The translations under genes and the position numbers were made by a program. Shown here piece after piece: positions 34,900-53,640 of a DNA stretch of 53,772 bases (position 1 is the stretch's first letter; every line of letters starts with the position of its first letter). Source of the stretch: Fusobacteriaceae bacterium. Its GTDB lineage: Bacteria > Fusobacteriota > Fusobacteriia > Fusobacteriales > Fusobacteriaceae. The notes below the pieces were generated by a model that did no database searches, was not told the origin of the DNA, and was given only the letters and a program-made list of their open reading frames with translations. The stretch is taken from NCBI GenBank assembly GCA_031272775.1, contig JAISTB010000028.1, positions 1-53,772 on the forward strand, written 5' to 3'.

Positions 34900-36546
34900 T
34901 CAATTGAATTCTTTTTTCAAACGCCGGATGATTTTCTTCCGCTCCAGAGCCTTCCCCTGAACCCGGCAATCGGCGATCTCCCGGTCAAGCTCCACAAGGG
35001 CGTCGGACGCGCCGCTTTTGGCGAGCCGCTCCCCCAAATGGGCCTTGGGCGTATAGCCGTAACGCTCCCGCAGAAGCCGGCAGTATTCCTCATAGAAGCC
35101 TTCGTCGTCCCCCGCGCTTTTGAGCGCCTGCAACGAAGGTCCCGATCCCCTTCCGGCCTTCTTTTTCCTTTTCATTACTAAATATAATAGCACAAAAGTC
35201 TCCGGGATACAAACAAATAAAAATATTTTTCCGTAGGGATGCGAAAAGCGGCCCGATTCTCCCTCGGGCGGAAGCGTCGAAACCGTGATTTTTTCGCTCG
35301 CGGCAAGCTCAACCGGTCCGTTTGTCGCCGGGGTCGTCGTGACCGCGGGCGAAGCCCCTTGAGGCGGCGCGACGCGCTGTGTTGGCGCGGAAGGCTGTAC
35401 TTGCCCGCTTCCGGGCGTCACCGAGACTTTCTTCGCCGGAATCTCCAAATATTCATATTTCTTGCTTTTGGGGCTGAAATAGGAAATCCGCATGTCCGGG
35501 ATCGTCACTTCCCCGGTATTTCTCGGGATTACGGCGATTTCAAAGGTCTTTTCGGCGTAATAACCTTCGTTTTCTATGGTCTCATCGGCGGATTTCACGC
35601 TCTCGAACACGTTGAATTCCGTCGCGGGCAGCGAATTTGCCGCGATTTCCTCAAGGCCGTCCAGATTGACCGCCCCCGAGATTTTTACCGTAAGCACAAG
35701 GGAATCGCCGTAGGAAACGCTGTCCCGATTCCAGCTCCAGTTGATTTCAGGGGTCCCCACGACGTTCTGAAAGTCCGCCGGTTTCCCCTGGGGCAGCGGC
35801 AGAATATGGAGCGTAATGTCTTTTTCGGGGAAAATGTTTCTGCGGATCCGCATGTTTTCCTCCGTTTCCACGGACAGGGAACTGGAGTGCATTTTTTTGT
35901 CCCCCGAGGAATTGGCCTCGAGAATCCACTGATAGATCGTCGCCTCTGCGGCCATGGTCCCCTTCAGCGTCCGGATCTGCTTTGTCCGGGGACCGCCGCC
36001 GGCCTGGACGGCGGGGACATTTTTCGAGGAAAGCTCTCCGAAATCAGAATCGGCCACGACGTTCAGGCCCATGAGTTGCCTCGAAAACAGGAGTTTTTCC
36101 ACATAGGGGATCTTTTCGCCGAAATAGAAGGTCTCATCCTGTTTGAGATTCGTCAAAAATTCGATTTCCTCGCCTGCGGCAACGGCGGCCCGCCCTTTGC
36201 CGACCTTGAGCGTCAGCTCGTTGGACGCGGCCTTTTTCCCGGCCGCTTTGAGCTTCACTTCCCCCTCTTTCAGCGGCAGGAGCTCATAAATATCGGCCAC
36301 CTGGCTCTGCTGCCGGCCGTTGATAATGGTGAAATTGGAGTTGGAACCCCGGGAAACGATCCGGAAGTTTTTGTCGAGACCGGCTATCGTGTAGTCCTCT
36401 TTCTCTTCGTTCACAAAGGTCACGGCAATCCGGAAGGTTTCGTTGAGGACGGGATTCAGCGTATCGCTTTCGAGCCGGATCTCGCCCAGGGCCGCCGTCG
36501 CGCCCAGGAGAAACAGTATTATCCATAGAATTTTTTTGATCTTCAC
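34900..36546 (-). CDS. batD: BatD-family protein
   Basis: Large exported protein of the Bacteroides-aerotolerance (Bat) cluster, 548 residues. Signal peptide (IKKILWIILFLLGATAALG), periplasmic Ig-like beta domains with LNPVLNETFRIAVTFVNEE and VSYGDSLVLTVKISGAVNLDGL, then a Pro/Thr-rich stretch (about 380-425). A single membrane helix follows (IFLFVCIPETFVLLYLVM, about 445-462), then a basic cytoplasmic tail. This is the usual BatD layout. The 1-bp gap to the BatC-like stop indicates coupling. Confidence 0.88.
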   Translation of the reverse strand: MKIKKILWIILFLLGATAALGEIRLESDTLNPVLNETFRIAVTFVNEEKEDYTIAGLDKNFRIVSRGSNSNFTIINGRQQSQVADIYELLPLKEGEVKLKAAGKKAASNELTLKVGKGRAAVAAGEEIEFLTNLKQDETFYFGEKIPYVEKLLFSRQLMGLNVVADSDFGELSSKNVPAVQAGGGPRTKQIRTLKGTMAAEATIYQWILEANSSGDKKMHSSSLSVETEENMRIRRNIFPEKDITLHILPLPQGKPADFQNVVGTPEINWSWNRDSVSYGDSLVLTVKISGAVNLDGLEEIAANSLPATEFNVFESVKSADETIENEGYYAEKTFEIAVIPRNTGEVTIPDMRISYFSPKSKKYEYLEIPAKKVSVTPGSGQVQPSAPTQRVAPPQGASPAVTTTPATNGPVELAASEKITVSTLPPEGESGRFSHPYGKIFLFVCIPETFVLLYLVMKRKKKAGRGSGPSLQALKSAGDDEGFYEEYCRLLRERYGYTPKAHLGERLAKSGASDALVELDREIADCRVQGKALERKKIIRRLKKEFN

Positions 36547-36547
36547 G

Positions 36548-37585
36548 CTACCACCTGTTCTTGCCGCGGGTATTTCCGACCGGCATTACCCGCTCGTTGT
36601 TTTTGAAGGACTGCTTTTCGTTGCCCTCCAGTTTTTTCAGGACGGCCCGGATTTCTTCTTTGCGCTCGTCGGGGACGTCTTCGGCGTATTGGATTTCGCT
36701 CTGTCCCTGCGCCTTTTGGCTGTCCTGCTGTTGATCTTGATCGTTAGCTTGATCTTCTTGCTGATTTTTTTGGTCTTGATTTTGTTGATTCCGCTGCTGC
36801 TGTTGGTTTTGCTGGTTTTGCTGATCTTGATTCTGCTTATCTTGCTGATCTTGATTCTGTTGATCTTGATTTTGCTGTTGATCCTGATTTTGTTGATTCT
36901 GTTGATTTTGTTGATCTTGTTGGTCTTGATTTTGCTGCTGATCTTGATTTTGTTGCTGCTGGTCTTGATTCTGTTGATCTTGATTTTGCTGCTGATCTTG
37001 ATTCTGCTGATCTTGCTGATCCTGATTCTGCTTGTCTTGTTGATCCTGATTCTGTTGGTCTTGCTGATCCTGTTGATCCTGCTTATCCTGTTTATCCTGC
37101 TGATCTTGCTGTTTTTGTTGATCCTGCTGATTTTTTATCTTTTCGAGAACCATCTCGTAATTTTTTTTGATATGGATATCGCCGGAACGCAGCATGGCGT
37201 TTTTGTATTCTTCGAGGGCTGCCGTATATCCTTCCATCGGCCCTTTTTCCCCGTTTTCCGCCTGCCCCGCCGGATCTGCCGGCGTCTCCGCCAACTTGAC
37301 CCGGGCATTGCCCCGGATAAAATACACCGTCGACTCCTCTTGGAGAACTTCCGCGTATTTTTCCGCCCCGTAGAGCGTCTTCACAAGATTGCTCCGGATC
37401 CGCCCGTTGCCGGGATCGGTCTCAAGGAGTTTCCGATAGGCCGCCAGGGCTTTTTCCGTTTTCCCCGTTTTTTGCAGGACATCGGCCAGCGTCTCGGGGA
37501 ACCATGTCCGCTCCCGCCGCCAGCCCGTAAAAAAGAGGGCGACGCCGGCGATCACAAGAAACAGCGCCAAAAGTTTACGTCTCAT
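36548..37585 (-). CDS. batC: BatC-like TPR protein with Gln/Asn/Asp-rich tract
   Basis: 345 residues. N-terminal membrane anchor (about 5-21), a TPR-like region to about 150 (GKTEKALAAYRKLLETDPGN, then EEYKNAMLRSGD), and then about 140 residues (152-293) made almost only of Gln, Asn, Asp and a few Lys. A conserved-looking end follows (IQYAEDVPDERKEEIRAVLKKLEGNE). TPR plus charged tract is normal for BatC/BatE, but the length and purity of this one are extreme. The Gln-rich part is likely disordered and periplasmic. The ATG overlaps the batB stop by 11 bp. Confidence 0.8.
   Translation of the reverse strand: MRRKLLALFLVIAGVALFFTGWRRERTWFPETLADVLQKTGKTEKALAAYRKLLETDPGNGRIRSNLVKTLYGAEKYAEVLQEESTVYFIRGNARVKLAETPADPAGQAENGEKGPMEGYTAALEEYKNAMLRSGDIHIKKNYEMVLEKIKNQQDQQKQQDQQDKQDKQDQQDQQDQQNQDQQDKQNQDQQDQQNQDQQQNQDQQNQDQQQQNQDQQQNQDQQDQQNQQNQQNQDQQQNQDQQNQDQQDKQNQDQQNQQNQQQQRNQQNQDQKNQQEDQANDQDQQQDSQKAQGQSEIQYAEDVPDERKEEIRAVLKKLEGNEKQSFKNNERVMPVGNTRGKNRW
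36707..37132. repeat. Low-complexity coding repeat (Gln/Asn/Asp codons)
   Basis: About 425 bp of degenerate tandem units built from CAG/CAA, AAT and GAT codons in patterns like QNQDQQ and DQQDKQ. Read on the plus strand it looks like a Leu/Ile-rich membrane ORF, which is an artefact. Such DNA changes length easily by slippage; in-frame units would keep the gene intact. Confidence 0.9.
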
Positions 37586-38543
37586 CTTTCGTCCTCCCCC
37601 GCAGGAAAAAGGCCGCGGTAATCAAAAGCAGCCCCAGCAGCAGCGGAACCTGAAAATACTTCTCATAGCGTCTGACGCGCTCCTCCCGGACGGCGCTCCG
37701 GTCGAGGCTTCGAATATCCGTGAAAAAGCGTGGAAAATCGTCTTGCAGATTGTTGACCTCGTAGTAGGCGCCGCCGTTTTCCTCGGCCAGTTGCCTTAAA
37801 AACGAGGTGTTGAGCCGACTCACCACGGCGGAGCCCGTCTCGTCCTTGATAAAGCCCTGTTTTTTGCCTCCCTCATAATCGGGGACAACGCCGCCCTGGG
37901 CCGTTCCGATGCCGGCCGCGTAAATTCTTATTCCGCGCTCCTTCGCGAAGCGCAGCGTCTTTTCGTCGAAATCCCCGCCGTCGGAGAGAATTAACACGGT
38001 CTTGTTGTCGCTGCCGGTCTCCGTAAAGGAGTTGTCCGCGATTTGCAGCCCCTGATAGAGCTCGGTGCCGCCCCCCGAAATCAGGTTGCCGTCGATGGCG
38101 TCGATGTAATTTTTTCCGATGGCATAATCGTCAGTCAGCGGCATCTGGATGTAGGCGCTGTCCGAGAAGGGGATAAAGCCTATCCGGTCTCCCTTGAGGT
38201 TTTTCAGCAATACCGTCAGCAGGCGCTTTGCTCCCTCCAATCGATTGGGATAGACGTCTTCGGTCATCATGGAGCGGGACACGTCGATCAGCGCGTAAAT
38301 ATCGGCGCCCTTCACGTCCTGCTTTTCCTCGTCGAGCAAACGTTGCGGGGAGAGCAGCGCAAGGACGAGGGCGAAGGCCCCCGCCGTCATCAGGACGATC
38401 CGCAGGAGCTCCAGCCCCGGCGTTCCCGTTATCGTCAATTGCCGCAGCAGTCTTCGCTTTTTCCCGAATCCGGCCAGCATAATGGCCAGGATCAGCAGGG
38501 GAATCAGCAAAAACGGCGCGTATCGCATATTTCCAAATTCCAT
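37575..38543 (-). CDS. batB: BatB-like vWA protein
   Basis: Membrane-anchored von Willebrand factor A protein, 322 residues. N-terminal helices (FLLIPLLILAIMLAGF; VLMTAGAFALVLALL), the MIDAS motif DVSRSMM, Thr in SGGGTELYQGL and Asp in LILSDGGDFDE, and a C-terminal helix (VPLLLGLLLITAAFFL). The start at 38543 follows GAGGAGG. It is the second vWA gene in the cluster and probably works with BatA in a MoxR-dependent complex at the inner membrane. Confidence 0.9.
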   Translation of the reverse strand: MEFGNMRYAPFLLIPLLILAIMLAGFGKKRRLLRQLTITGTPGLELLRIVLMTAGAFALVLALLSPQRLLDEEKQDVKGADIYALIDVSRSMMTEDVYPNRLEGAKRLLTVLLKNLKGDRIGFIPFSDSAYIQMPLTDDYAIGKNYIDAIDGNLISGGGTELYQGLQIADNSFTETGSDNKTVLILSDGGDFDEKTLRFAKERGIRIYAAGIGTAQGGVVPDYEGGKKQGFIKDETGSAVVSRLNTSFLRQLAEENGGAYYEVNNLQDDFPRFFTDIRSLDRSAVREERVRRYEKYFQVPLLLGLLLITAAFFLRGRTKDET

Positions 38544-38553
38544 CGAATCCTCC

Positions 38554-39513
38554 TCAGGGAATCCGCACAAAAATCAGGTAGCGGAGCGATATCCCGAGCA
38601 AAAGCAGAATCAACGCGCCCGTGAGAAAATTCTCGTACAGCTCCTGCCGCTCGTAATAACTGCGTCCTTCCACTTCCGTTTTTTCCAGTTCGTTGATCGT
38701 ATCAAAAATCCGCTCGAATTCTTTCTCGTCTCCGGCTCTGAAGTATTGACCCCCGGTCTCTTTCGCGATATATTCGAGCAAGGTCTCATCCAGTTCCGTG
38801 TTCTTGACGCGCTGGCTCCCGAAAAAAGAACGGACGACGAATTCCCGGGCCCCGATGCCCACGGTGTAGACCTTGACGCCCAGCTCTTTGGCCAGTTTTG
38901 CCGCCCCCTCGGGGCTCATTTCCCCCGAGTTGTTCTCGCCGTCCGTCAGCAAAATCGCGATTTTTTCCCGGGTCTTCGCTTCCTTGATCCGGTTCAGGGA
39001 GACGCCCAGGCCCATGCCGATAGCCGTCGACGTGTTGCTTGTGATGTCATTGACCGTCAGTTTACGCACGATCTCGGTAATGACATTGTGGTCAAAGGTC
39101 AGGGGAACCTTCGTATAGGCGTCGCCGCCGAAGACCACGAGGGAGATCAGGTCATCGGGGCGTTTTTCGACAAATCGGCCGAGGACCGCCTTGGCGGTCT
39201 CGAGTCGGCTGGGCCGGAAATCGTCCTTCAACATGGACTGGGAGAGATCGAGCACGAGGGCGATGGAAATCCCGTTTTTCGTGACGCTCCTGTCCTCGAG
39301 CCACAACTGCGGTCGGGCCAGCGCGAAGGCCGCCGTGATCGACGACAGAAAGATCAGCCATTTGCCGATCAGGGTTTTTTTGCTTTTGAGCTTGTATTGC
39401 CGGACCAGGGCCACGCTGGGGACCCGGATCGCGGGTTCTTTTTGCCTGCGGAAAAACAGCCAGGCCAGAAGGGGGATAAAGGCCAGAAACCAGGGCGCGG
39501 CCAGTTTAAACAT
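38554..39513 (-). CDS. batA: BatA-like vWA protein
   Basis: 319 residues, same layout as its neighbour. Membrane segments at about 5-20 and 52-70, MIDAS DLSQSMLKDD, TSTAIGMGLG and LLTDGENNSGE, and a final helix (FLTGALILLLLGISLRYLIF). It overlaps the preceding gene by 8 bp and ends 10 bp before batB. The complete MIDAS set implies divalent-metal-dependent binding of a partner. Confidence 0.9.
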   Translation of the reverse strand: MFKLAAPWFLAFIPLLAWLFFRRQKEPAIRVPSVALVRQYKLKSKKTLIGKWLIFLSSITAAFALARPQLWLEDRSVTKNGISIALVLDLSQSMLKDDFRPSRLETAKAVLGRFVEKRPDDLISLVVFGGDAYTKVPLTFDHNVITEIVRKLTVNDITSNTSTAIGMGLGVSLNRIKEAKTREKIAILLTDGENNSGEMSPEGAAKLAKELGVKVYTVGIGAREFVVRSFFGSQRVKNTELDETLLEYIAKETGGQYFRAGDEKEFERIFDTINELEKTEVEGRSYYERQELYENFLTGALILLLLGISLRYLIFVRIP

Positions 39514-40303
39514 CGCTTACCGCCCCCTTTTGCTTTTCCTTCTCTGCCAGGTCGCGAAGCCGCCCGTAGATATCCATTGCCCGGGCGCAGACGCGTTTTT
39601 GGTACGTATCGGCCTTTTCTTCCTTCCGCGAGAACTTGTAGTCGTCGAGGTCTTTGATATAGTTGACGTCGTCTGCATCGATGACGCCGGTCTTTTCGTA
39701 GTCGCCGGTCAAAAATCGCGTGCCGTAGCGATAATCAATGAGTTCCCGCAGGAGCACGCTGACCCGGTATTCCCACTGGTCGGCGGGAAGGTCGGCCATA
39801 TCCCGCTCAAAGCTCAGGAAAGGATTCCGCGCCGGTCGGGTCCGCCGCCGACCCTTGGGCGTCAGCAAAAAAAGCCCCGCAAGAAAGAGCGCGATACCCG
39901 CGATCAGCCGGTATGGAGGCTTCCCCCAGTCCAGTTTCCGCTCGTCGCCGTCGGCCTGATTGAGGTAAATTTCCCCGTTCCGGGCGCGGTCGGCTTCGGT
40001 CAGGGCGCTGGCCACATGGATCGTGAGATCAAGATTTCCCGGACGCAAATTCAATTCTCCCGGCAGAAAGCTCCGGAACGTGACGACGTTTCCCGGCGGG
40101 TCTTTGGCGTCATCCCGGATATCCTCAAGGCGGACGTCATTTGCCGCGGGCGCCCCGTCAAAGGCCCGGGCGATCTCCTCCCGGGAGACGCCCGTCATCC
40201 GCAGGCGGACCGGATCCCCCACCAGGATCTCCCGTTCGGCGGCCGGTCCCGTCATCGCCAACAATAGAAAAAGCATCAAACCACAGGGCAAAATTCGCTT
40301 CAT
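39506..40303 (-). CDS. Membrane protein of the moxR-bat cluster, unassigned
   Basis: 265 residues. Signal peptide (ILPCGLMLFLLLAMTGPAA), a periplasmic domain of about 110 residues, one membrane helix (about 131-148, LIAGIALFLAGLFLLTP) and a charged cytoplasmic domain with LSFERDMADLPADQWEYRVSVLLRELIDYRYGTRFLTGDYEK. The position between DUF58 and BatA and this last segment fit the DUF4381-like proteins of other bat operons. It is coupled on both sides by 4- and 8-bp overlaps. Confidence 0.7.
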   Translation of the reverse strand: MKRILPCGLMLFLLLAMTGPAAEREILVGDPVRLRMTGVSREEIARAFDGAPAANDVRLEDIRDDAKDPPGNVVTFRSFLPGELNLRPGNLDLTIHVASALTEADRARNGEIYLNQADGDERKLDWGKPPYRLIAGIALFLAGLFLLTPKGRRRTRPARNPFLSFERDMADLPADQWEYRVSVLLRELIDYRYGTRFLTGDYEKTGVIDADDVNYIKDLDDYKFSRKEEKADTYQKRVCARAMDIYGRLRDLAEKEKQKGAVSDV

Positions 40304-41118
40304 CGTTTGATCCTCCGTCGCTTGCCGAAATAATTGGAAAGCGTCACAATATAGTTGTCATCGGTATCGATTTTCAAAATCCGCCTGCCCATGGGGCGGG
40401 TCAGGGAAATATCGCCGGCTTTGTTCTCCATGACGACGCGTTCGCCGCTCTCGGCGTCCCGCAGCGTGAATATGGTCCCCGAGGGCAGTTTGTCATATTT
40501 CTTGTCGCCCACCGCGATGGGAATCAGGTCATGCTTGGAATCGAGAATCGCCAGCATTTTTTCGTAGCCCGTATCGAGAAAATCCGAAATCAGAAAGACA
40601 ATCCCGCGTTTTTTCATGACGCCGTTCAAAAACTCCAGGGCCGTCCGTATGCTGGTCCCGCGCTCGGCGGGCTCGGCGTTAAGCAAGGCGTCCAAAAGGA
40701 TCATCGCGTGATTCCGACCTTTTTTGGGGGGAATATGCTTTTCAATCTTCGTGGTGAATAAAATCAGGCCCACTTTGTCGCCGTTTTTATGGGCGGAAAG
40801 GGCGAGACTTCCCACAAGTTGATAAATCAAGTCGAGCTTTTCGGGAAAATATTCGGAACCCGAAATATCCACGAGGATATAGATGCAGATTTCCCTTTCT
40901 TCCGTAAATTCTTTGACATAGGTCTTCCGCTGGCGGGCCGAGACCTTCCAGTCGATTTTTTTCACGTCGTCGCCGGGGGCATAGAGCCGGATATCGGAAA
41001 ATTCCATGCCGTTTCCCTTGAAATAGGAGCGGTACCTGCCCGAGAAGATCTCGCGGGCCAAAATAGACGAGGCGATTTCTATTTTTTTAATCTTTTTCAG
41101 CAGTTCTTCACGCTTCAT
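40300..41118 (-). CDS. DUF58 family protein
   Basis: Soluble vWA-like protein, 272 residues, of the MoxR-associated DUF58 family. It has RSYFKGNGMEFSDIRLYAPGDDVKKIDWKVSARQRKTYVKEF, the signature segment, then the vWA-type DISGSEYF and LISDFLDTG. The start at 41118 follows AGGGTGG. It lies between moxR (12 bp) and the 265-residue gene (4-bp overlap). It is thought to link the MoxR ATPase with client proteins. Confidence 0.92.
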   Translation of the reverse strand: MKREELLKKIKKIEIASSILAREIFSGRYRSYFKGNGMEFSDIRLYAPGDDVKKIDWKVSARQRKTYVKEFTEEREICIYILVDISGSEYFPEKLDLIYQLVGSLALSAHKNGDKVGLILFTTKIEKHIPPKKGRNHAMILLDALLNAEPAERGTSIRTALEFLNGVMKKRGIVFLISDFLDTGYEKMLAILDSKHDLIPIAVGDKKYDKLPSGTIFTLRDAESGERVVMENKAGDISLTRPMGRRILKIDTDDNYIVTLSNYFGKRRRIKR

Positions 41119-41130
41119 TGAAACCACCCT

Positions 41131-42114
41131 TTACGGCAATTTTACGGTTTCCAGAATGTCGGTGATGATGTCGTCGACAGTCTTTCCCTCGGCTTCGGCC
41201 TCGTAGGTGGGAATAATCCGGTGCCGCAGCACGTCAAAGAGGATGGTCTTCAAATCCGTGGGCGTCACGAAATCACGCCCTTCAAGAAAGGCGTTTCCTT
41301 TTCCCGCCAGCGCGATGGCGATGGAGGCTCTGGGCGAAGCGCCGCAGAGGATGTAATTGTTCTTTTCCCGGGTCCGGAAAACGATATCGACGATATAATC
41401 CATCAATTTTTCATCGAGATGGATCTCCCGGATAAGGTCGCCGATGGCCTTGATTTCATTCTTGTCGAGGATCGCGTCTATCGGCATATCCTCGTATCCG
41501 CCGGCGCCCGTCAGCAAGCGCAGGATCGTCTTTTCTTCTGCCTTATCAGGATATTCGACCCTGACTTTCATCAAGAATCTGTCCTGCTGGGCTTCGGGCA
41601 GCGGGTAGGTCCCGTCCTGCTCGATGGGGTTCTGGGTCGCCAGGACCACAAAAGGCCGGTCCAGAATAAACGTCTCGCTTGCGATCGTGATCTGCTTTTC
41701 CTGCATGGCCTCAAGGAGAGCCGACTGCACCTTGGCAGGGGCGCGGTTGATTTCGTCGGCCAGGATGATGTTGGCGAACACGGGGCCTTTTTTCGTGTAA
41801 AATTCCCCGTTTTTTTCGTTGTAAATCTCGGTTCCGATGATGTCCGAAGGCAGCAGATCCGGCGTAAATTGGATTCTCGCAAATTTGAGACCCAGGGTGC
41901 GGGCAATGGTGCTGACCGTCAGGGATTTGGCCAGTCCCGGCAGTCCCTCCAGCAGAATATGACTGCCCGTAAAGATTCCGATCAGGATCTTTGCGATCAT
42001 GTCCTGCTGCCCGATGACCTTCTTCCCGATCTCGTCCCGGACGGCCCTGACCAGCCTGCCGTATCCCAAAATTCGTTCTTTGACGCTGAGTTTGCTTTCA
42101 GCCGTATTTTCCAT
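41131..42114 (-). CDS. moxR: MoxR-family AAA+ ATPase
   Basis: AAA+ chaperone-like ATPase, 327 residues, expected to drive assembly or metal loading of the Bat vWA complex. Walker A is GLPGLAKS, Walker B is IILADEINRAPAKVQSALLEAMQEKQ, sensor 1 is LATQNPIEQDGTYPLPEAQQDRF with the Arg finger, and CGASPRASIALA is the sensor 2 region. The start at 42114 follows GGAGGT at nine bases; a longer frame lacks a ribosome-binding site. First gene of a seven-gene moxR-DUF58-batABCD operon. Confidence 0.93.
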   Translation of the reverse strand: MENTAESKLSVKERILGYGRLVRAVRDEIGKKVIGQQDMIAKILIGIFTGSHILLEGLPGLAKSLTVSTIARTLGLKFARIQFTPDLLPSDIIGTEIYNEKNGEFYTKKGPVFANIILADEINRAPAKVQSALLEAMQEKQITIASETFILDRPFVVLATQNPIEQDGTYPLPEAQQDRFLMKVRVEYPDKAEEKTILRLLTGAGGYEDMPIDAILDKNEIKAIGDLIREIHLDEKLMDYIVDIVFRTREKNNYILCGASPRASIAIALAGKGNAFLEGRDFVTPTDLKTILFDVLRHRIIPTYEAEAEGKTVDDIITDILETVKLP

Positions 42115-42201
42115 TTTTCTCTTACCTCCGATCCGTTTCGTAACTCTAACTATAGCCGCTTTTGATGTCCCCAATATGACAGCGGGGCTCTTTATCTCCG
42201 A

Positions 42202-46949: not shown

Positions 46950-48158
46950 TCAGGCCTGTTCTTCCAACAGGAAATCCAAGATATTCCGGATTTTGATCCC
47001 GCGATAATCTTTGAAGGGCAGGCGGTCCATGGTCAGGACCACTTTTTCGTGGTTGTCATTCAGTTTTTCCAGCGGTCTCACTTCCCGCTCCAGTGTTGCG
47101 GGGTCCATGACGGACGCGACCACCTGGCAATAAATCAATTCATCGAGATTCTTTGCCACAAAATCAATCTCAAGGTCGTCGGACTTTCCGACATTGACCC
47201 GATATCCGCGACGCAGCAACTCGAAATACACAACATTTTCCAAAAGTCTGCCGTAATCGCGGCTGCCGTCCGACAAGAGCAGCGTCCGGATCCCCGAATC
47301 CGTCAGGTAATACTTGGCCTGGGTCTTCAAAAGCAGCTTGCCCTTGAGGTCATAGCGGGACGCCTTGTAAATGATAAAGGCCTCTTCAAGGTGGTGCAAA
47401 TAGTTTTCGACAGTCTCGCTGGACGTCTTCTGTCCGGCGCTCGAGAGGTAATCGCTGATTTTTTTTGCCGAAACGGGATTGCCGATGTTGTCCGCGAGAT
47501 ATTTCATCAGGTTTTCCAGCAAAGGCGGGTCTTTGATGATGTTGCGAGTGATGACGTCCTTCATGAGGATCGTGTTGTAGACGCCGGAAAGGAAATCCAT
47601 ATTGGCGCGAGGCGTCTCTACAATGTCAATCCTGCCCGGGAAACCGCCATATTCCAGATAATCGGCAAAAGCGCGCGCGGTATCGCCGCCGGCGGCGAAG
47701 TCGATAAAATCGAGATATTCCTTGAAGGAGAGGGGAAGCATTTTGATTTCGACGTAACGTCCTGTCAGGTATGTCGAGATTTCTGAGGACAGCAGTTTCG
47801 CGTTGGAACCGGTCAGGTAAATATCCAGGTCCGGACTCAGGAAAAGGGCGTTAACGGTGATTTCCCAATCGGGGATCCGCTGAATTTCATCGAGCAGGAG
47901 ATAATATTTTTCTCCTTTTTCCGCAGTCTGCTCCTCAATCAGGGCGTACAGGGTCTTGTGGTCCATGCCGTCATAGCGGAATTCCTCAAAGTTGTGTTTT
48001 ATGATCTGACCTTCTTTTACGCCGCTTTCCAGCAAATGCGCCCTGAAAAGGTCAAGCAGCATGGATTTGCCTGAACGTCTAATGCCTGTGACGACTTTGA
48101 TCATGTGCTTGTTCACAAAGGGGGAAAGTTTTTTGAGATAGACGGGACGATTTTTCAT
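46950..48158 (-). CDS. AAA ATPase with C-terminal DUF4143
   Basis: 402-residue soluble P-loop ATPase. Walker A is TGIRRSGKSMLLDLF, Walker B is YYLLLDEIQRI, followed by IYLTGSNAKLLSSEI. The C-terminal half has the DUF4143 pattern (LKGKLLLKTQAKYYLTDSGIRTLL, ENVVYFELLRRGY, LEIDFVAKN), which resembles a restriction-like nuclease fold with the Asp and Glu-x-Asp positions. Many copies of this family occur in fusobacteria and their role is unknown; defence or toxin-like functions have been suggested. It has a GAGGTGA site and is preceded by a 40-bp repeat array containing its promoter. Confidence 0.9.
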   Translation of the reverse strand: MKNRPVYLKKLSPFVNKHMIKVVTGIRRSGKSMLLDLFRAHLLESGVKEGQIIKHNFEEFRYDGMDHKTLYALIEEQTAEKGEKYYLLLDEIQRIPDWEITVNALFLSPDLDIYLTGSNAKLLSSEISTYLTGRYVEIKMLPLSFKEYLDFIDFAAGGDTARAFADYLEYGGFPGRIDIVETPRANMDFLSGVYNTILMKDVITRNIIKDPPLLENLMKYLADNIGNPVSAKKISDYLSSAGQKTSSETVENYLHHLEEAFIIYKASRYDLKGKLLLKTQAKYYLTDSGIRTLLLSDGSRDYGRLLENVVYFELLRRGYRVNVGKSDDLEIDFVAKNLDELIYCQVVASVMDPATLEREVRPLEKLNDNHEKVVLTMDRLPFKDYRGIKIRNILDFLLEEQA

Positions 48159-48164
48159 ATGCTC

Positions 48165-48284
48165 ACCTCTTTTTCAAGTATAACTGAAAAAGTTGGAAAA
48201 AGCAAGAAGTTTTTCGGTTGTAACTGAAAAAGTTCTGAAAATCCAGAAGTTTTTCGGTTGTGGCTGAAAAAGTTTTTGGGCCAA
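48165..48284. repeat. Three tandem 40-bp repeats with internal palindrome
   Basis: Units 48165-48204, 48205-48244 and 48245-48284. Units 2 and 3 are nearly identical in their first half; unit 1 is diverged. Each carries a near-palindrome of GTTTTTCGGTT against AACTGAAAAAGTT around the GTAA or GTGG centre. They stand between the ATPase gene and the end of the AAA/radical SAM cassette, at the point where base composition changes. They may bind a regulator or form RNA hairpins. Confidence 0.85.
48177..48205 (-). promoter_or_regulatory. Promoter of the DUF4143 ATPase gene, inside the repeat array
   Basis: -35 TTGCTT (48200-48205), 17-bp spacer, -10 TATACT (48177-48182), minus strand. The -10 is a variant of the repeat sequence: unit 1 has TATACT where units 2 and 3 have TTACAA and CCACAA, so only the first unit acts as a promoter. 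Confidence 0.6.
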
Positions 48285-48317: not shown

Positions 48318-50195
48318 CTAAAATTTCGACTTTGTTGCTATAAGCGAGTGCTTATCCTGAACAGTTTCAATCTCCTCTATCGTAATGCTGACTCCCCCTG
48401 ATACCCCTTGATCAAAAATATACCGTGACAATGGATTTATAACCATGCTCTCTACAACATTGCCTATTCCTCGTCCACCGTTCTCCAAATTTAATTTTAC
48501 TCTTTCAAACAACGTTTTAACCGCTTCTTTGGAAAAATCCAGCCGTATGTTTTTTTCAGCGAAGAGGTTTACGGATATTTTTGTCAACTGTGCCTTCATA
48601 ATATCCAAAGCTACTGATTCTCTAATATAATCATATACAATTATATTTTCGCCAATTCTGTTCAAAAGTTCCGGCCTGCCCAATTGCAATTTAAAATAAT
48701 TCTCGATCGCAGTTCGAACCTTTACTTGGATTTCCTCATATGGCATGCTTGAAGTTACATTAGCGATGCGGTTTCCCCTTTCATCAGGAATAAATATTCC
48801 TAAATTACTCGTAAATATAATAATTGTTTCAGAAAAATATATCGTATTCCCCTGACCGTCGGTCATACGGCCATCTTCGAGGATCTGTAGAAATTTGTCC
48901 AGAATAGATGGATCTGCTTTTTCTATTTCATCGAAAAGAAGAACCGAAAAAGGATTCTTCTTGACTGCATTAGTCAGTTGTCCACCAGCCTCATAGCCTA
49001 TGTAACCTGGCGGTGCACCCATGAGTTTCTGGTCAGAATGAGATTGTGAGTATTCACTCATATCGAATCGAATGCAGGAACGCTCATCTCCGAAAATAAA
49101 TTCTGATAATGTTTTTGCCAGTTCCGTTTTGCCAGTCCCGGTTGGACCTGCGAGAAACAAAACGCCTTTAGGTTTGGAAAGAGAAGAGGACTGAAGACCT
49201 GCTAACCCGACAACAGCCCTTTTTATAATGTCAAGAGTTCGGTTGATCGCTAAATTTTGTCCTTTGATCCGGTTTTGAAACATTTTTTCCGCATGCATCA
49301 GCTTATCGTAATTGAGCTTGGCCCATGGATTTTCTTGAATTCCAAATTTATAAAGATCAATGACTTGACAGAGTTTCGAAATTTCTGTTTTTCTTGATTT
49401 TGCAAGTTTCCGAATATCATTCAGTTCCGTAAAGCTCATTCCTTCAGTCAACGCAACAAAGCGATCTTGAATTTTTATTAATTCTCTAGGTAAGTTTTCG
49501 TAAGTAGCGATTTGTTCTTTGTATATGTCTACCTGAAAAAAGCTTCTGAAATTTTCTCCTTTTATAAATTGCTCTCGCTCCTCTTTTTGCGGCGTGTCAA
49601 TTCTGATTGTTTTACTTCCAGGATTTTCTAAGTAGAACCACGCTGGTAGATCGTTTACTTTGTTTGCAATCACTATTATCACATTTTTCAGCACATTTCC
49701 CATTGTGACAACATCCATGGCTGAAAGGCTGGCCATGGTCAAATTCGTAAAGATATCTATGTCCTCTTGACTCAAATTATCCGGAGAAATGATATATCGA
49801 GAAGCAAAATTTAAAATTAGCGCAGTTGGAACTTCCGCTTGAGCCAAGGCAGTCACTGCACGAGCAGAGAGATCAATTAAATCCAATGGCCGGGAATTGT
49901 TACCAAAATTTTGTATGCCTGCAACTTTTATGAATGCAGATAGACTTTCGGCATTCATTTCATTTGATAGACCTGATAGACCATCAAAAAAGGCAATGGC
50001 TTTATAACCCAAATCTGTCAAATAATAATGTAGATACTCAGAGAGCCTTACTATACTTCCACCAGGCAACTCCTGATTCTCTGAAATTTCTGGATACTGA
50101 TACAAGTCAAGAACATTTCCCTCCAAAACGATTTGTGGATTTAATCGACAAAAAATATTTAATTCCTTATGCCATTTTGAGATAAATTCTTCCAT
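48318..50195 (-). CDS. ClpB-like AAA+ protein with degenerate N-terminal AAA module
   Basis: 625 residues, last gene of the island cassette. The C-terminal module (about 300-610) is a ClpB/ClpV D2-type unfoldase: Walker A GPTGTGKT (350-357), pore loop GYIGYE (397-402), Walker B LLFDEIEK (419-426), sensor 1 Asn464, Arg finger in RPELLNRIGE, and sensor 2 GGRG (573-576). All catalytic parts are present. The N-terminal half has no P-loop, but residues about 125-270 look like a decayed AAA domain: NVIIVIANKV-NDLPAWF with an RIDTPQKEERE continuation, then the lid-like FVALTEGMSFTEL. There is no Clp N-domain or ClpB coiled coil. The start follows AGGAG located in the end of the radical SAM gene, 1 bp away. 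Probably it remodels a client supplied by the cassette. Confidence 0.85.
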   Translation of the reverse strand: MEEFISKWHKELNIFCRLNPQIVLEGNVLDLYQYPEISENQELPGGSIVRLSEYLHYYLTDLGYKAIAFFDGLSGLSNEMNAESLSAFIKVAGIQNFGNNSRPLDLIDLSARAVTALAQAEVPTALILNFASRYIISPDNLSQEDIDIFTNLTMASLSAMDVVTMGNVLKNVIIVIANKVNDLPAWFYLENPGSKTIRIDTPQKEEREQFIKGENFRSFFQVDIYKEQIATYENLPRELIKIQDRFVALTEGMSFTELNDIRKLAKSRKTEISKLCQVIDLYKFGIQENPWAKLNYDKLMHAEKMFQNRIKGQNLAINRTLDIIKRAVVGLAGLQSSSLSKPKGVLFLAGPTGTGKTELAKTLSEFIFGDERSCIRFDMSEYSQSHSDQKLMGAPPGYIGYEAGGQLTNAVKKNPFSVLLFDEIEKADPSILDKFLQILEDGRMTDGQGNTIYFSETIIIFTSNLGIFIPDERGNRIANVTSSMPYEEIQVKVRTAIENYFKLQLGRPELLNRIGENIIVYDYIRESVALDIMKAQLTKISVNLFAEKNIRLDFSKEAVKTLFERVKLNLENGGRGIGNVVESMVINPLSRYIFDQGVSGGVSITIEEIETVQDKHSLIATKSKF

Positions 50196-50196
50196 G

Positions 50197-50802
50197 TCAG
50201 TCTCCTTTAATTCCTACTGTAATGATATGGTTGCCTTCAGAAAACACTTGCAGAGAATTTCCTTCTTTCATATATTCATTATATTTTTTTTTGCATTTCG
50301 GATCAAGATAATGTATAATTTGATTGTCAGATCCACGTAGTGGACTATTGTTGTTCTCTTTTTCAAGGTATTGTCCATCTATCAAAACTGAAATATTAGA
50401 CAAAATAGAGTGAACACTTTCCTTTCGCATATTTTTTAATTCCTGCAAAGTAAATCCGGTATAAACTAATATATCAATTTTGGAGGATCTGTGACTAAAT
50501 AATCTATGAAGCCCTTCGACAAGAATTGCTAAAGCTCCAGGCTGCAGGAACGGTTCTCCTCCGGAAATAGTAATGCCATCCACATTTATGTTCTTAAAGA
50601 CACGCTTCATTGTTTTCAGTAAATCTTCTGTATTGATTCTTTCTGTTGGATGCTGAATTTTAAATTCCGGACTAATACACCCATGGCAATTTCTATGGCA
50701 TCCGGTTAACCATATGCCAATCCGGGTTCCCGGACCTAAACTGTGGACTGGATAAAGAATATTGCCAATATAAATATGTCTTGCGACTTCTGGTTTTGTC
50801 AT
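50197..50802 (-). CDS. Radical SAM protein, activase-like (single 4Fe-4S)
   Basis: 201 residues. The iron-sulfur motif is TGCHRNCHGC (C35, C39, C42; C-x3-C-x2-C), followed by the SAM-binding SGGEPFLQ (80-87). The compact length and the start IYIGNILYPVHSLGPGTRIGIWLTG resemble NrdG/pyruvate-formate-lyase-activase type proteins with one cluster and no SPASM extension. No glycyl-radical enzyme is in the window, so the substrate is probably a protein or peptide of the cassette. The ATG at 50802 follows GGTGA; two earlier in-frame starts lack a site. It is 16 bp after the FHA gene. Confidence 0.85.
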   Translation of the reverse strand: MTKPEVARHIYIGNILYPVHSLGPGTRIGIWLTGCHRNCHGCISPEFKIQHPTERINTEDLLKTMKRVFKNINVDGITISGGEPFLQPGALAILVEGLHRLFSHRSSKIDILVYTGFTLQELKNMRKESVHSILSNISVLIDGQYLEKENNNSPLRGSDNQIIHYLDPKCKKKYNEYMKEGNSLQVFSEGNHIITVGIKGD

Positions 50803-50818
50803 AATCATCACCACAGGT

Positions 50819-51472
50819 TCATGATTTAGATTTTTTCTTTTCCCCTTCTTTACCAAGCGCCACCTTAACGATCAGACTTCTTGAGGGTTTTCTCTCGCCT
50901 CCCATCATCACAATGGAACCGATTTGCAATGGATACGCTTTTTCTGAAGGAATTGACTTTCCATTGACAATGGTTCCATTTTTGCTTTTTAAGTCAGTAA
51001 CAACCAGCTGCCCGTTTTGCAGACTGAATTTACAATGTTTCCTGGATACGCCGTCTTTATTTTTCCGGACTAAATATCCACCCCATACGTTTGCTCGTCC
51101 TATAACGACAGGATTTGCTAAATCTAATTCCAGTATTTCGCCATCTTCCAAAGAAATCAAAGAATACTCCGTCGTGAGGGGATCTTCTTCAAAGTTATCA
51201 GGTATATTATCAATAGATGTTATCGGCACATCCTCCAAAGATTCACCGCAGGCTTCGCATTTAAGGAGATTAGCGGGATTCTTGTGTTGACATTCCTCAC
51301 AAATCCTGATTTGGGTTTCAGAGATTTTTGGTTCGGTCGGGACAGATGGAAACTCAGAAGGGGCCGGTTTGTCAATTGACACGCCTGTCAAATCATATCC
51401 GCATCCTTTGCAGGTGAAGATATTAGCCAGATTTTGTAGTCCGCATTGCGGGCAAGTTTTTGTCTTAGCCAT
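50819..51472 (-). CDS. Double zinc-ribbon + FHA domain protein
   Basis: 217 residues. Two similar zinc ribbons: C7-x2-C10 with C21-x2-C24, and C58-x2-C61 with C72-x2-C75. An acidic linker is followed by an FHA domain (about 110-205) with GR (125-126), SRKH (143-146) and NGT (165-167), the phosphothreonine-reading residues. A basic tail ends the protein. The ATG at 51472 overlaps the upstream stop by 8 bp and follows AAGGA; longer frames overlap the neighbour by about 100 bp and are rejected. It implies control by a Ser/Thr kinase, none of which is in the window. Confidence 0.88.
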   Translation of the reverse strand: MAKTKTCPQCGLQNLANIFTCKGCGYDLTGVSIDKPAPSEFPSVPTEPKISETQIRICEECQHKNPANLLKCEACGESLEDVPITSIDNIPDNFEEDPLTTEYSLISLEDGEILELDLANPVVIGRANVWGGYLVRKNKDGVSRKHCKFSLQNGQLVVTDLKSKNGTIVNGKSIPSEKAYPLQIGSIVMMGGERKPSRSLIVKVALGKEGEKKKSKS

Positions 51473-52337
51473 TTGTTTTTCCTTGAGTGATCGCCTTTTT
51501 TTTCGTACCCGCTTTATCATAGTTCTCTTTTGTTCTCCGATATTCCTGTAAATTGACTTTAGCAACATTTTCTACTGATGGGGGGGTGGCAGTATATTCA
51601 GTTACAATAACGCCTTTTTCAGCAAGCCGTTCAATTATTTTTCCTTCCATTCCACAAAAAGTCTTAGACTTAGACGTAATGTCCATGGCCTCAGTTTTGG
51701 TTGGAATGGTATTATCTTCTCCTTTCCCAACGATGCTCATTATAATACTGCCATCACTTTTTTGCACGACATTTATTGCTGTCGTATCCCCATAATCAAT
51801 TAAGGTGCTTTTTGATTTTTTCCCGGATTTCTTGACGATATTTTTGGTCGCAAACGCTTCGTAGCCCAATTCTTGGAATGTCTCAGCAACTGCATTTTCC
51901 ACGACCGTATTAAGAAAATCATTCCCAGCAATACGTCTGTATTGTTCTTGCGCTATTTCTTTTATAATTGCTATAGATTCTGCCGAACAAGAGTACTTAT
52001 CCGGGCTTTCACCAAGGGATTTGCAACATATTTGGTATTCTGAATAAACATCAATAAAGGCTTTTTTCAATTGAACATCTTTTTTTTCAATATTCTCTTG
52101 ATTGACTTCCGTGAAAGTAATAATCTCTTCTGATTTCGATTTTACTAGTCTCAGATAAATCTCTAGCTCTTTCTTTCGCAGAGCTGATTCCATTTGAGCT
52201 TTCTTTCTTTCTTCTGTTCGTTTTTCTTCTCGCTCTTTTTTTTGACGAGCTCTCTCTTCTGCAAGTAATCTTTGGCGTTCTGCTTCTTCGGCTATTCTTT
52301 CCAAATTTATTGTAATTTTACCTTGTCCGTGACTCAT
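51465..52337 (-). CDS. Charged coiled-coil protein with unassigned C-terminal domain
   Basis: 290 residues. It begins MSHGQGKITINLERIAEEA, then a highly charged helix (about 12-75; Arg/Glu/Lys runs) expected to form a coiled coil. A helical middle (about 75-170) and an alpha/beta domain (about 170-265: YEAFATKNIVKKSG, GDTTAINVVQKSDGSIIMSIVG, MEGKIIERLAEKGV) complete it. No catalytic motif is recognised. The ATG overlaps the upstream stop in ATGA, the stop overlaps the FHA start, and so it is made in step with both. It may be the scaffold or the client of the radical SAM and AAA+ proteins. Confidence 0.78.
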   Translation of the reverse strand: MSHGQGKITINLERIAEEAERQRLLAEERARQKKEREEKRTEERKKAQMESALRKKELEIYLRLVKSKSEEIITFTEVNQENIEKKDVQLKKAFIDVYSEYQICCKSLGESPDKYSCSAESIAIIKEIAQEQYRRIAGNDFLNTVVENAVAETFQELGYEAFATKNIVKKSGKKSKSTLIDYGDTTAINVVQKSDGSIIMSIVGKGEDNTIPTKTEAMDITSKSKTFCGMEGKIIERLAEKGVIVTEYTATPPSVENVAKVNLQEYRRTKENYDKAGTKKKAITQGKTNG

Positions 52338-52996
52338 AATAAGACTCCTTTGATATACATGAAAGCAACTAAAATAGATATGAACAAATTAACTACCACT
52401 AATACCAGCATGACTGCATATTTAGTTTTTAATTTCCTCATATCCGCATGATAAACTTTCGGAAAATCGACAACAATTGTATTCCAAGCTTTGTCCTGTT
52501 TTTCAGCGATTTCATTTTGCTGTAAACCTATATTATCTATATCCGAGGTAATAGTTGTCACACCATTTATTATTGCTTTATGATTATCTTTGACCAACTG
52601 CAACAGCAATTTGATGTTTTCGTCTTGCTGTCTAATCGAATTCCGATTTTGAGACTGGACGTCCTTAACAACCTCAACAAAATTTGACACCGTTGTACAG
52701 GAAGCTGATAATATGGCTGCTGTATTTTGTGCATCATTCCTCAATTTTTCGGCAGTATGATTTGCCAGAACTATATCTGCTATCAGCTTGTCCATTTTCT
52801 CGGAAGTAGACTGACTCTCAGAGTAAATTCTCTGTATGAGTTTTTCTACTGCATTAGCATATTTTTCGCTAGCTAGCTGTGATTCTTTTACCCATGTTTG
52901 GATACTGCCAACAATAAGTCGCTCAGATTTTTCAAGTTCTTCTGTCACCGTTGCCAATCTCTCGCCCGTCGACGGCTGATTATCATTTTTACCCAT
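52334..52996 (-). CDS. Coiled-coil protein with C-terminal membrane anchor
   Basis: 220 residues. Long helical region (about 15-170) rich in Gln, Asn, Ser and charged residues with heptad-like spacing (ATVTEELEKSERLIVGSI, EKYANAVEKLIQRIYSES). One hydrophobic helix lies at about 192-217 (YAVMLVLVVVNLFISILVAFMYI) with a short end. There is no signal peptide, so most of it faces the cytoplasm: a tail-anchored filament or receptor. The pattern recalls the coiled-coil of chemoreceptors without HAMP or signalling tip. The start at 52996 follows AAGGAGGAG. It probably holds the cassette at the membrane. Confidence 0.8.
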   Translation of the reverse strand: MGKNDNQPSTGERLATVTEELEKSERLIVGSIQTWVKESQLASEKYANAVEKLIQRIYSESQSTSEKMDKLIADIVLANHTAEKLRNDAQNTAAILSASCTTVSNFVEVVKDVQSQNRNSIRQQDENIKLLLQLVKDNHKAIINGVTTITSDIDNIGLQQNEIAEKQDKAWNTIVVDFPKVYHADMRKLKTKYAVMLVLVVVNLFISILVAFMYIKGVLL

Positions 52997-53040
52997 GCGG
53001 GTCTCCTCCTTGTATATCCACAATTCTTGATGGATTATAT

Positions 53041-53640
53041 CTATTTTGGTCTTATAGACTTGGTAAGCCTTGTTAAAGCCAATTCAGCAATGATGAGCAT
53101 TGTTTCATTATCCTTTAACATCCGATGAATTTCCATTAACCGATTGGGAAGAATGTTCATCGCTTCTTTTGCAAAGAAGTCTTTTGCGCCTTCTGGAGCA
53201 GTTTGTAAAATTGGCAATGAATAAGAAATCAATAGATTTTGATTATGTTCATTAAAATATGTAGGGTCCATCTCAAAAATTCTGCTGAGTTCTCCCCTGT
53301 AGTCAAGATATCGTTCACCATCGAATTGCTTTGCAAGATAATTTATTACTTCCAGTCCTATATTCCCTCGATAAGATTCGCGATATCGGTCGATCAATGC
53401 TGAGAGGGCGACTATTTCATCTTGCGAGCGTAGTTTTTTTTGACTATATGTTCGCTCCTCATTGGTTTCATAATTGTAAAATATGGAAAGCCACGCCTCT
53501 ATATCAGTAGACACAGAAAGTATGCTGTTGATGCGTGCATTGTCTGTCGTGCTCAACCTGAAAAACGAATTAATATATTGTCTAATTTCCTCTTCGCTGG
53601 GGTTTCGCTCACAAAAGCGATACATGTTCACTATAGCCAT
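53041..53640 (-). CDS. Unrecognised helical protein, first gene of the island cassette
   Basis: 199 residues from the ATG at 53640; the frame is open to 53712, but the extra N-terminus (many aromatic and Ile residues) looks non-coding, and an ATG at 53625 is also possible. Composition is helical and mildly acidic with many Asn, Arg and Tyr (NPSEEEIRQYINSFFRLS, ALIDRYRESYRGNIGLEVINYLA, LPNRLMEIHRML). No signal or membrane segment. I do not recognise it. It lies 44 bp before the coiled-coil gene and is probably co-transcribed, but membership in the cassette is by position only. Confidence 0.6.
   Translation of the reverse strand: MAIVNMYRFCERNPSEEEIRQYINSFFRLSTTDNARINSILSVSTDIEAWLSIFYNYETNEERTYSQKKLRSQDEIVALSALIDRYRESYRGNIGLEVINYLAKQFDGERYLDYRGELSRIFEMDPTYFNEHNQNLLISYSLPILQTAPEGAKDFFAKEAMNILPNRLMEIHRMLKDNETMLIIAELALTRLTKSIRPK

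Follow-up and report, generated by a model that had tools for sequence, protein, structure and literature searches.

The contig JAISTB010000028.1 of a Fusobacteriaceae bacterium (assembly GCA_031272775.1), analysed here as a window of 53,772 nucleotides (positions 1 to 53,772), carries near its end a cassette of six open reading frames (ORFs), all on the minus strand and spanning 48318–53625. This cassette appears to be an incomplete, horizontally acquired copy of a widespread multi-gene system. The full clostridial form of the system consists, in order, of a helicase (DUF4011, with a nuclease domain), a Ser/Thr kinase, a variable transmembrane (TM) or coiled-coil protein, a protein designated ORF3, a zinc ribbon protein with an FHA domain, a radical SAM protein (rSAM), an AAA+ protein (AAA), a PP2C phosphatase and a DUF4236 protein. 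The genes very probably constitute one functional unit. Its likeliest function, with about an even chance, is a defence that is gated by phosphorylation and directed against phages or other mobile DNA. The observations comprise the gene content, gene order and co-inheritance of the system, its sequence motifs, the threonine arrays of its kinases, the degenerate first AAA domain (D1), the defence context of the relatives and the foreign base composition of the window copy.

When 84,980 genomes were scanned with a diagnostic part of the AAA, at least 540 relatives emerged, of which 80 were kept. The operon recurs in Clostridia, Erysipelotrichia, Selenomonadales and Succinivibrionaceae, as well as in relatives from the window's own order; because the same arrangement is found in many genomes, that of the cassette is not due to chance. 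Profiles built from the loci and mapped back onto them give the order HEL-STK-[slot]-ORF3-FHA-rSAM-[LRR_5]-AAA-PP2C-C5, where HEL is the helicase, STK the kinase and C5, in the operon loci tested, the DUF4236 carrier. Of 34 loci whose upstream sequence extends over 2.5 kb or more, FHA is present in 33, ORF3 in 32, rSAM in 31, PP2C in 29, the kinase in 24 and C5 in 11; the helicase is present in 12, many contigs stopping before its position. The pairwise distance matrices of six families correlate (r 0.70–0.93, with none of 500 permutations as high), a correlation to which shared organism history contributes. An earlier note on this DNA had proposed as a test the recurrence of the rSAM, FHA and AAA+ genes with a coiled coil beyond close relatives, near kinases or phosphatases, and the loci found bear this out strongly. 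BspA-type leucine-rich repeat genes lie between rSAM and AAA in loci L020, L028, L039, L052, L090 and L096; the LRR_5 family was confirmed for L028. At L116:13270-17809 (genome G076), the AAA measures only 516 aa, and PP2C is preceded by an ORF that resembles a transposon gene (TnpB-like by eye).

The system is also carried on plasmids. A tblastn search of plasmids with the AAA gave full-length relatives from Aristaeella, Rhizobium, Caballeronia, Moellerella, Leisingera, Photobacterium, Polaromonas and Acinetobacter, and a Geminocystis relative at 80% coverage. Two main layouts surround these genes: that of Aristaeella comprises a DUF4011 helicase, kinase, coiled coil, FHA, rSAM, AAA and PP2C; that of Proteobacteria (e.g., Moellerella and Acinetobacter) comprises an Upf1-like helicase, a PIN-domain protein, a coiled coil, AAA and rSAM. 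The Acinetobacter plasmid pNDM1_010055 (L010), named for NDM-1, carries this five-gene proteobacterial version, and no near match to the proteobacterial operon was found in E. coli genomes. In 28 further loci, designated clade II (L034, L038, L043 and L048 among them), the AAA is accompanied by C5 only; FHA, rSAM, ORF3 and PP2C are found in 0/28, and ORF3 is absent from the entire genomes of the 13 clade II members searched. Because the AAA tree places clade II inside the loci that carry the operon, an ancestral operon that clade II later lost is the likely history.

The window cassette has the contiguous order ORF3, FHA, rSAM, AAA seen in the operon type. ORF2 and ORF3 overlap by 4 bp and ORF3 and the FHA gene by 8 bp, while 16 bp separate FHA from rSAM and 1 bp separates rSAM from AAA; the six same-strand ORFs and their spacing were described exactly in the earlier note, and its identification of zinc ribbon-FHA, radical SAM and Clp-type AAA proteins agrees with the Pfam matches.

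The AAA gene (48318–50195) encodes an Hsp100-type double AAA+ protein with a degenerate D1 and an active ClpB-like second domain (D2), matching the Pfam families AAA_2 (7.7e-49) and ClpB_D2-small (1.8e-6). D1, approximately residues 1–285, lacks Walker A and also resembles VCP-like sequences, and D2 retains Walker A, Walker B, sensor 1, the Arg finger and GGRG. The same asymmetry holds across the family, with Walker A present in 88/88 D2 and 0/88 D1 domains. The model (predicted local distance difference test, pLDDT, 86) shares with ClpC/ClpB the fold over residues 3–625 (Z 28.5) and the intact D2 motor, which alone fits ClpB D2 at 2.5 Å, but the protein lacks the N-domain, the D1 Walker A and the ClpP loop; as modelled, it is an Hsp100 protein without an N-domain. 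Its score of 257.2 bits is below the ClpB equivalog cut-off of 1232. The ClpP-docking tripeptide [LIV]G[FL] is found in the D2 of 0/86 family members, and the AAA as an unfoldase for a ClpP-dependent protease was rejected because the docking loop is absent. No relatives of the AAA N-terminus were found in phage records.

The presence of an Hsp100 protein next to a kinase, an FHA reader and PP2C brings to mind the Ser/Thr phosphorylation pathway of the type VI secretion system (T6SS), the threonine phosphorylation pathway PpkA-Fha-PppA, which has the identical regulatory trio. The system could, by analogy, be an assembly or secretion machine in which the trio governs how a membrane apparatus is assembled and the AAA recycles that apparatus; the TM coiled-coil proteins encoded at the variable slot would suit it. 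However, the AAA scores 215.9 bits against a TssH/ClpV cut-off of 884.95, sheath, baseplate and secretion genes were not seen in the loci read and the TM slot is variable, making this explanation quite improbable. The stricter reading of the AAA as a T6SS ClpV was rejected, as its score is far below the cut-off and no T6SS structural genes were seen.

The protein encoded at 50819–51472 (start ATG at 51472) is a double zinc ribbon and FHA adaptor (FHA domain, 2.5e-14; double zinc ribbon, 4.4e-6). The rSAM gene (50197–50802, start ATG at 50802) encodes an NrdG/pyruvate formate-lyase (PFL)-activase-like protein, free of SPASM, with a CX3CX2C motif (GCHRNCHGC), a Fer4_12/radical SAM match at 7.9e-28 and PFL activase as its best PDB match. 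It shares the minimal rSAM fold and the cysteine motif with NrdG and the PFL activating enzyme, but misses the NrdG equivalog threshold (93.9 bits against 126.1), and the core proteins lack a glycyl-radical motif: R[VITCA][SCAG]GY gave two chance-level matches among 350 core proteins and none in the window cassette. On the latter ground, a glycyl radical enzyme activase was rejected. A viperin was rejected as well, the matches to it being weak and at the general rSAM level.

An rSAM might instead modify a small effector peptide, as in a system related to ribosomally synthesised and post-translationally modified peptides (RiPPs) or in a conflict system. Passages of Kaur et al. 2020 (PMC7159879), including section 21, describe FtsH ternary conflict systems in which a double AAA protein with a dead, P-loop-less N-terminal AAA and a live second one is paired with an rSAM gene proposed to modify a peptide effector. 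The P-loop-less N-terminal AAA is shared with the cassette family, but the active domain of the ternary systems is, in those passages, FtsH-type and the systems are defined by vWA-MoxR proteins, whereas that of the cassette is Clp-type and no vWA or MoxR domain scores above the cut-off in the cassette proteins; the MoxR/vWA/BatD-type genes at 34903–42174 of the window form a separate locus. With no conserved small peptide gene noticed (ORFs shorter than 70 aa were not searched), the lack of SPASM and the PFL activase match, a RiPP-like or conflict system of this kind is quite improbable.

ORF3 (51465–52337) is a long coiled coil with an alpha-beta4-alpha C-terminal domain; its predicted structure (pLDDT 82) shows a long helix followed by this domain. 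Most family members start with MSGPK, the window copy with MSHGQGK. No Foldseek match to the C-terminal domain was obtained below E 0.1. VIA-align gave a KA1-like match, to the KA1 domain of Chk1 (Z 7.7, 2.2 Å over 78 residues), that is tied with spermine synthase (Z 8.0); the elements of the domain and KA1 follow in the same order, the score is below the trusted level and the modelled resemblance is a weak lead. The match of ORF3 to the proteobacterial coiled coil is also weak (E 0.005, probability 7%).

ORF2 (52334–52996) sits in the variable slot preceding ORF3 and is a coiled coil anchored in the membrane by its C-terminal TM segment; its likeliest start, 52996, is preceded by AAGGAGG and gives a protein of 220 aa with one TM segment. 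No relatives were found in 98 related genomes, and the slot is often filled in other loci by unrelated TM or coiled-coil proteins, so that membrane tethering, advanced in the earlier note as part of the machine, is not a core feature. ORF1 (53041–53625) encodes a helical protein, with no relatives in plasmids or in the 98 related genomes. It has no apparent ribosome-binding site and its start lies 30 bp from an insertion sequence (IS)-like repeat end at the contig edge (53655–53772, plus strand); it is therefore possibly truncated at its 5′ end and may be a remnant. The repeat recurs with 98% identity at the end of another contig of this genome, C6, and opens an ORF which, by reading of the sequence, appears to encode an IS630-type transposase. 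ORF1 as the lost C-terminus of a kinase was rejected, BLAST, HMMER and hhalign all being negative. On the other side of the cassette, three 25-nt direct repeats with 40-bp spacing (48170–48274) lie between it and the next gene; they could be an operator or the scar of a recombination event.

In 28 family kinases, the N-terminal tails, which total 2,000 residues, contain 99 T-x-[ILVM]-[NSM] motifs. Shuffled tails contain 11.2, and the 14,339 residues of non-tail kinase sequence contain 24, a contrast that is descriptive because the motif was picked after the sequences had been read. The repeats are uniform inside one kinase and different across lineages, a pattern that multivalent docking sites for the FHA domain could show; in one kinase from the window's own order, ATVPQN repeats replace the motif. 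The arrays are likely to be docking sites for FHA. The kinase control suggested in the earlier note gains support from these sequences and from the operon's own cognate kinase and PP2C. Firmicutes have a helicase of the Hhe/PDC-S37 type, whereas the proteobacterial one is MkoA-like; that of L006 matches PDC-S37 at 1308 bits and Hhe at 545 bits, and that of L008 matches MkoA at 340 bits. In complete operons, it carries an MTES_1575 nuclease domain. This helicase/nuclease partner was missed in the earlier note because it is absent from the window.

The window copy looks horizontally acquired: its GC content is 37.9%, compared with 54.5% for the remaining window, and a convincing ORF3 is found, among 98 genomes of the phylum, in the window's genome and two others only. 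It also looks incomplete, with no helicase or cassette PP2C found and the family kinase on another contig. The Pkinase profile detects a single kinase in the whole genome (contig C9, L015:15209-16396), which belongs to the operon kinase family; at 395 aa against approximately 560, it is about 165 residues short, and it has one tail motif and a GC content of 37.2%. Phage-like genes and an apparent reverse transcriptase adjoin it. No family helicase was found in the genome, where the sole AAA_12 hit is weak and does not match the family helicase profile, and the sole PP2C_2 hit is on contig C3 (L105), in a different context. There, PP2C adjoins a divergent kinase-like protein missed by the Pkinase profile, an arrangement reminiscent of TerY-P triads and outside the operon.

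These gaps, the shortened off-site kinase and the IS-like end and contig end on the 5′ side would fit a non-functional remnant, a state compatible with any proposed function. Against this, five ORFs are intact, catalytic motifs are conserved and translational coupling is kept; the off-site kinase matches the cassette in GC content, and the operon L096 of Selenomonadaceae, the nearest cousin with enough context, likewise has no PP2C following the AAA. The chance that the window copy is a remnant falls somewhat short of even, and that it is still functional is roughly even.

The genomic context points to defence. Matched at E < 1e-20, the 112 proteins flanking operon loci hit 77 PADLOC families compared with 3 for 108 clade II flanking proteins, although the PADLOC families are redundant, so the distinct matched proteins are fewer than 77, approximately six to eight when counted by named groups; the clade II control is partly from close relatives, and the flank sets also include a few intra-operon accessory genes. 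The matches include PglZ, DpdF, GajB, PsyrT, a reverse-transcriptase-associated helicase and HEC-06. The relatives, which come from several phyla, are thus located in defence islands, and the window has a single such neighbour, an AAA_14/DUF4143 ATPase adjoining the cassette (46950–48158) that matches the PADLOC candidate PDC-S01 at 1.6e-155.

Several points weigh against a defence function. The window's own flanks are mostly housekeeping genes (EF-G, MoxR/vWA/BatD, GroEL-type), and the DUF4011 helicase is directly upstream of only 13 of 26 kinases. The clade II AAA, with only C5 retained, sits among ordinary chromosomal genes and lacks the other operon genes, so the AAA can serve another role. 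Every functional step is inferred, and the rSAM substrate is a candidate. The same clade II context, the Hsp100-like AAA (D2 active, ClpP loop absent) and the kinase/PP2C pair, fitting for reversible stress control, would agree with stress response or protein quality control: a kinase-regulated disaggregase, where the rSAM repairs or tags damaged proteins and the Hsp100 refolds or extracts them. However, patchy distribution, plasmid carriage, defence-gene neighbours and helicase/nuclease partners are unusual for housekeeping chaperones. Quality control is accordingly unlikely, and defence is favoured over it because of the genomic context.

The components of the system are already known, but no named system that combines kinase, FHA, rSAM and Hsp100 with a helicase turned up in PADLOC 2023, NCBIfam, Pfam or the open-access literature searched (preprints and current DefenseFinder models lie outside this scope). 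No protein of the window has a match to a named defence system. Hhe (DUF4011-helicase-Vsr) and PDC-S37 have the helicase type found, with a nuclease domain, in complete operons. Hhe acts as a single gene, whereas in the relatives the helicase is the first gene of an operon that also contains kinase, FHA, rSAM and AAA; it was not found in the window's genome. Mokosh (MkoA/MkoB) has an Upf1-like helicase with a fused or adjacent kinase, and the proteobacterial helicase resembles MkoA; Mokosh is not known to have an FHA, rSAM or Hsp100 component, and no match to MkoA or MkoC was found among the window cassette proteins. The passages found in papers of the Aravind group, including PMC7159879, do not describe the operon.

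Of the machine envisaged in the earlier note, the recurrence is borne out and kinase control is supported, membrane tethering is not a core feature and, among the candidate roles, context favours defence over quality control. For phosphorylation-gated defence, the following course may be proposed. Foreign nucleic acid or damage would be sensed by the helicase or the variable subunit, whereupon the kinase would phosphorylate the tandem threonines of its own tail; the FHA domain would dock on the phosphorylated tail, gathering rSAM and ORF3, and the rSAM would modify a cassette protein, ORF3 being the likeliest candidate. The D2 motor of the AAA would then thread or remodel the modified assembly, switching on a nuclease or membrane effector, and PP2C would reset the system. 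A new kind of immune machine, in which the threonine array that the kinase phosphorylates on itself recruits FHA, the rSAM places a radical-made modification on a partner, and an Hsp100 ring with a single motor reads that modification, building up or dismantling a nuclease or membrane effector, is possible but rather doubtful. Binding between the threonine arrays and their FHA partner is open to direct testing, and cultured bacteria such as Clostridium drakei (L030) and Succinimonas amylolytica (L095) have operons that are complete or nearly so. If the proposal is true, a Hanks kinase would control both an rSAM modification and an Hsp100 motor in one defence pathway.

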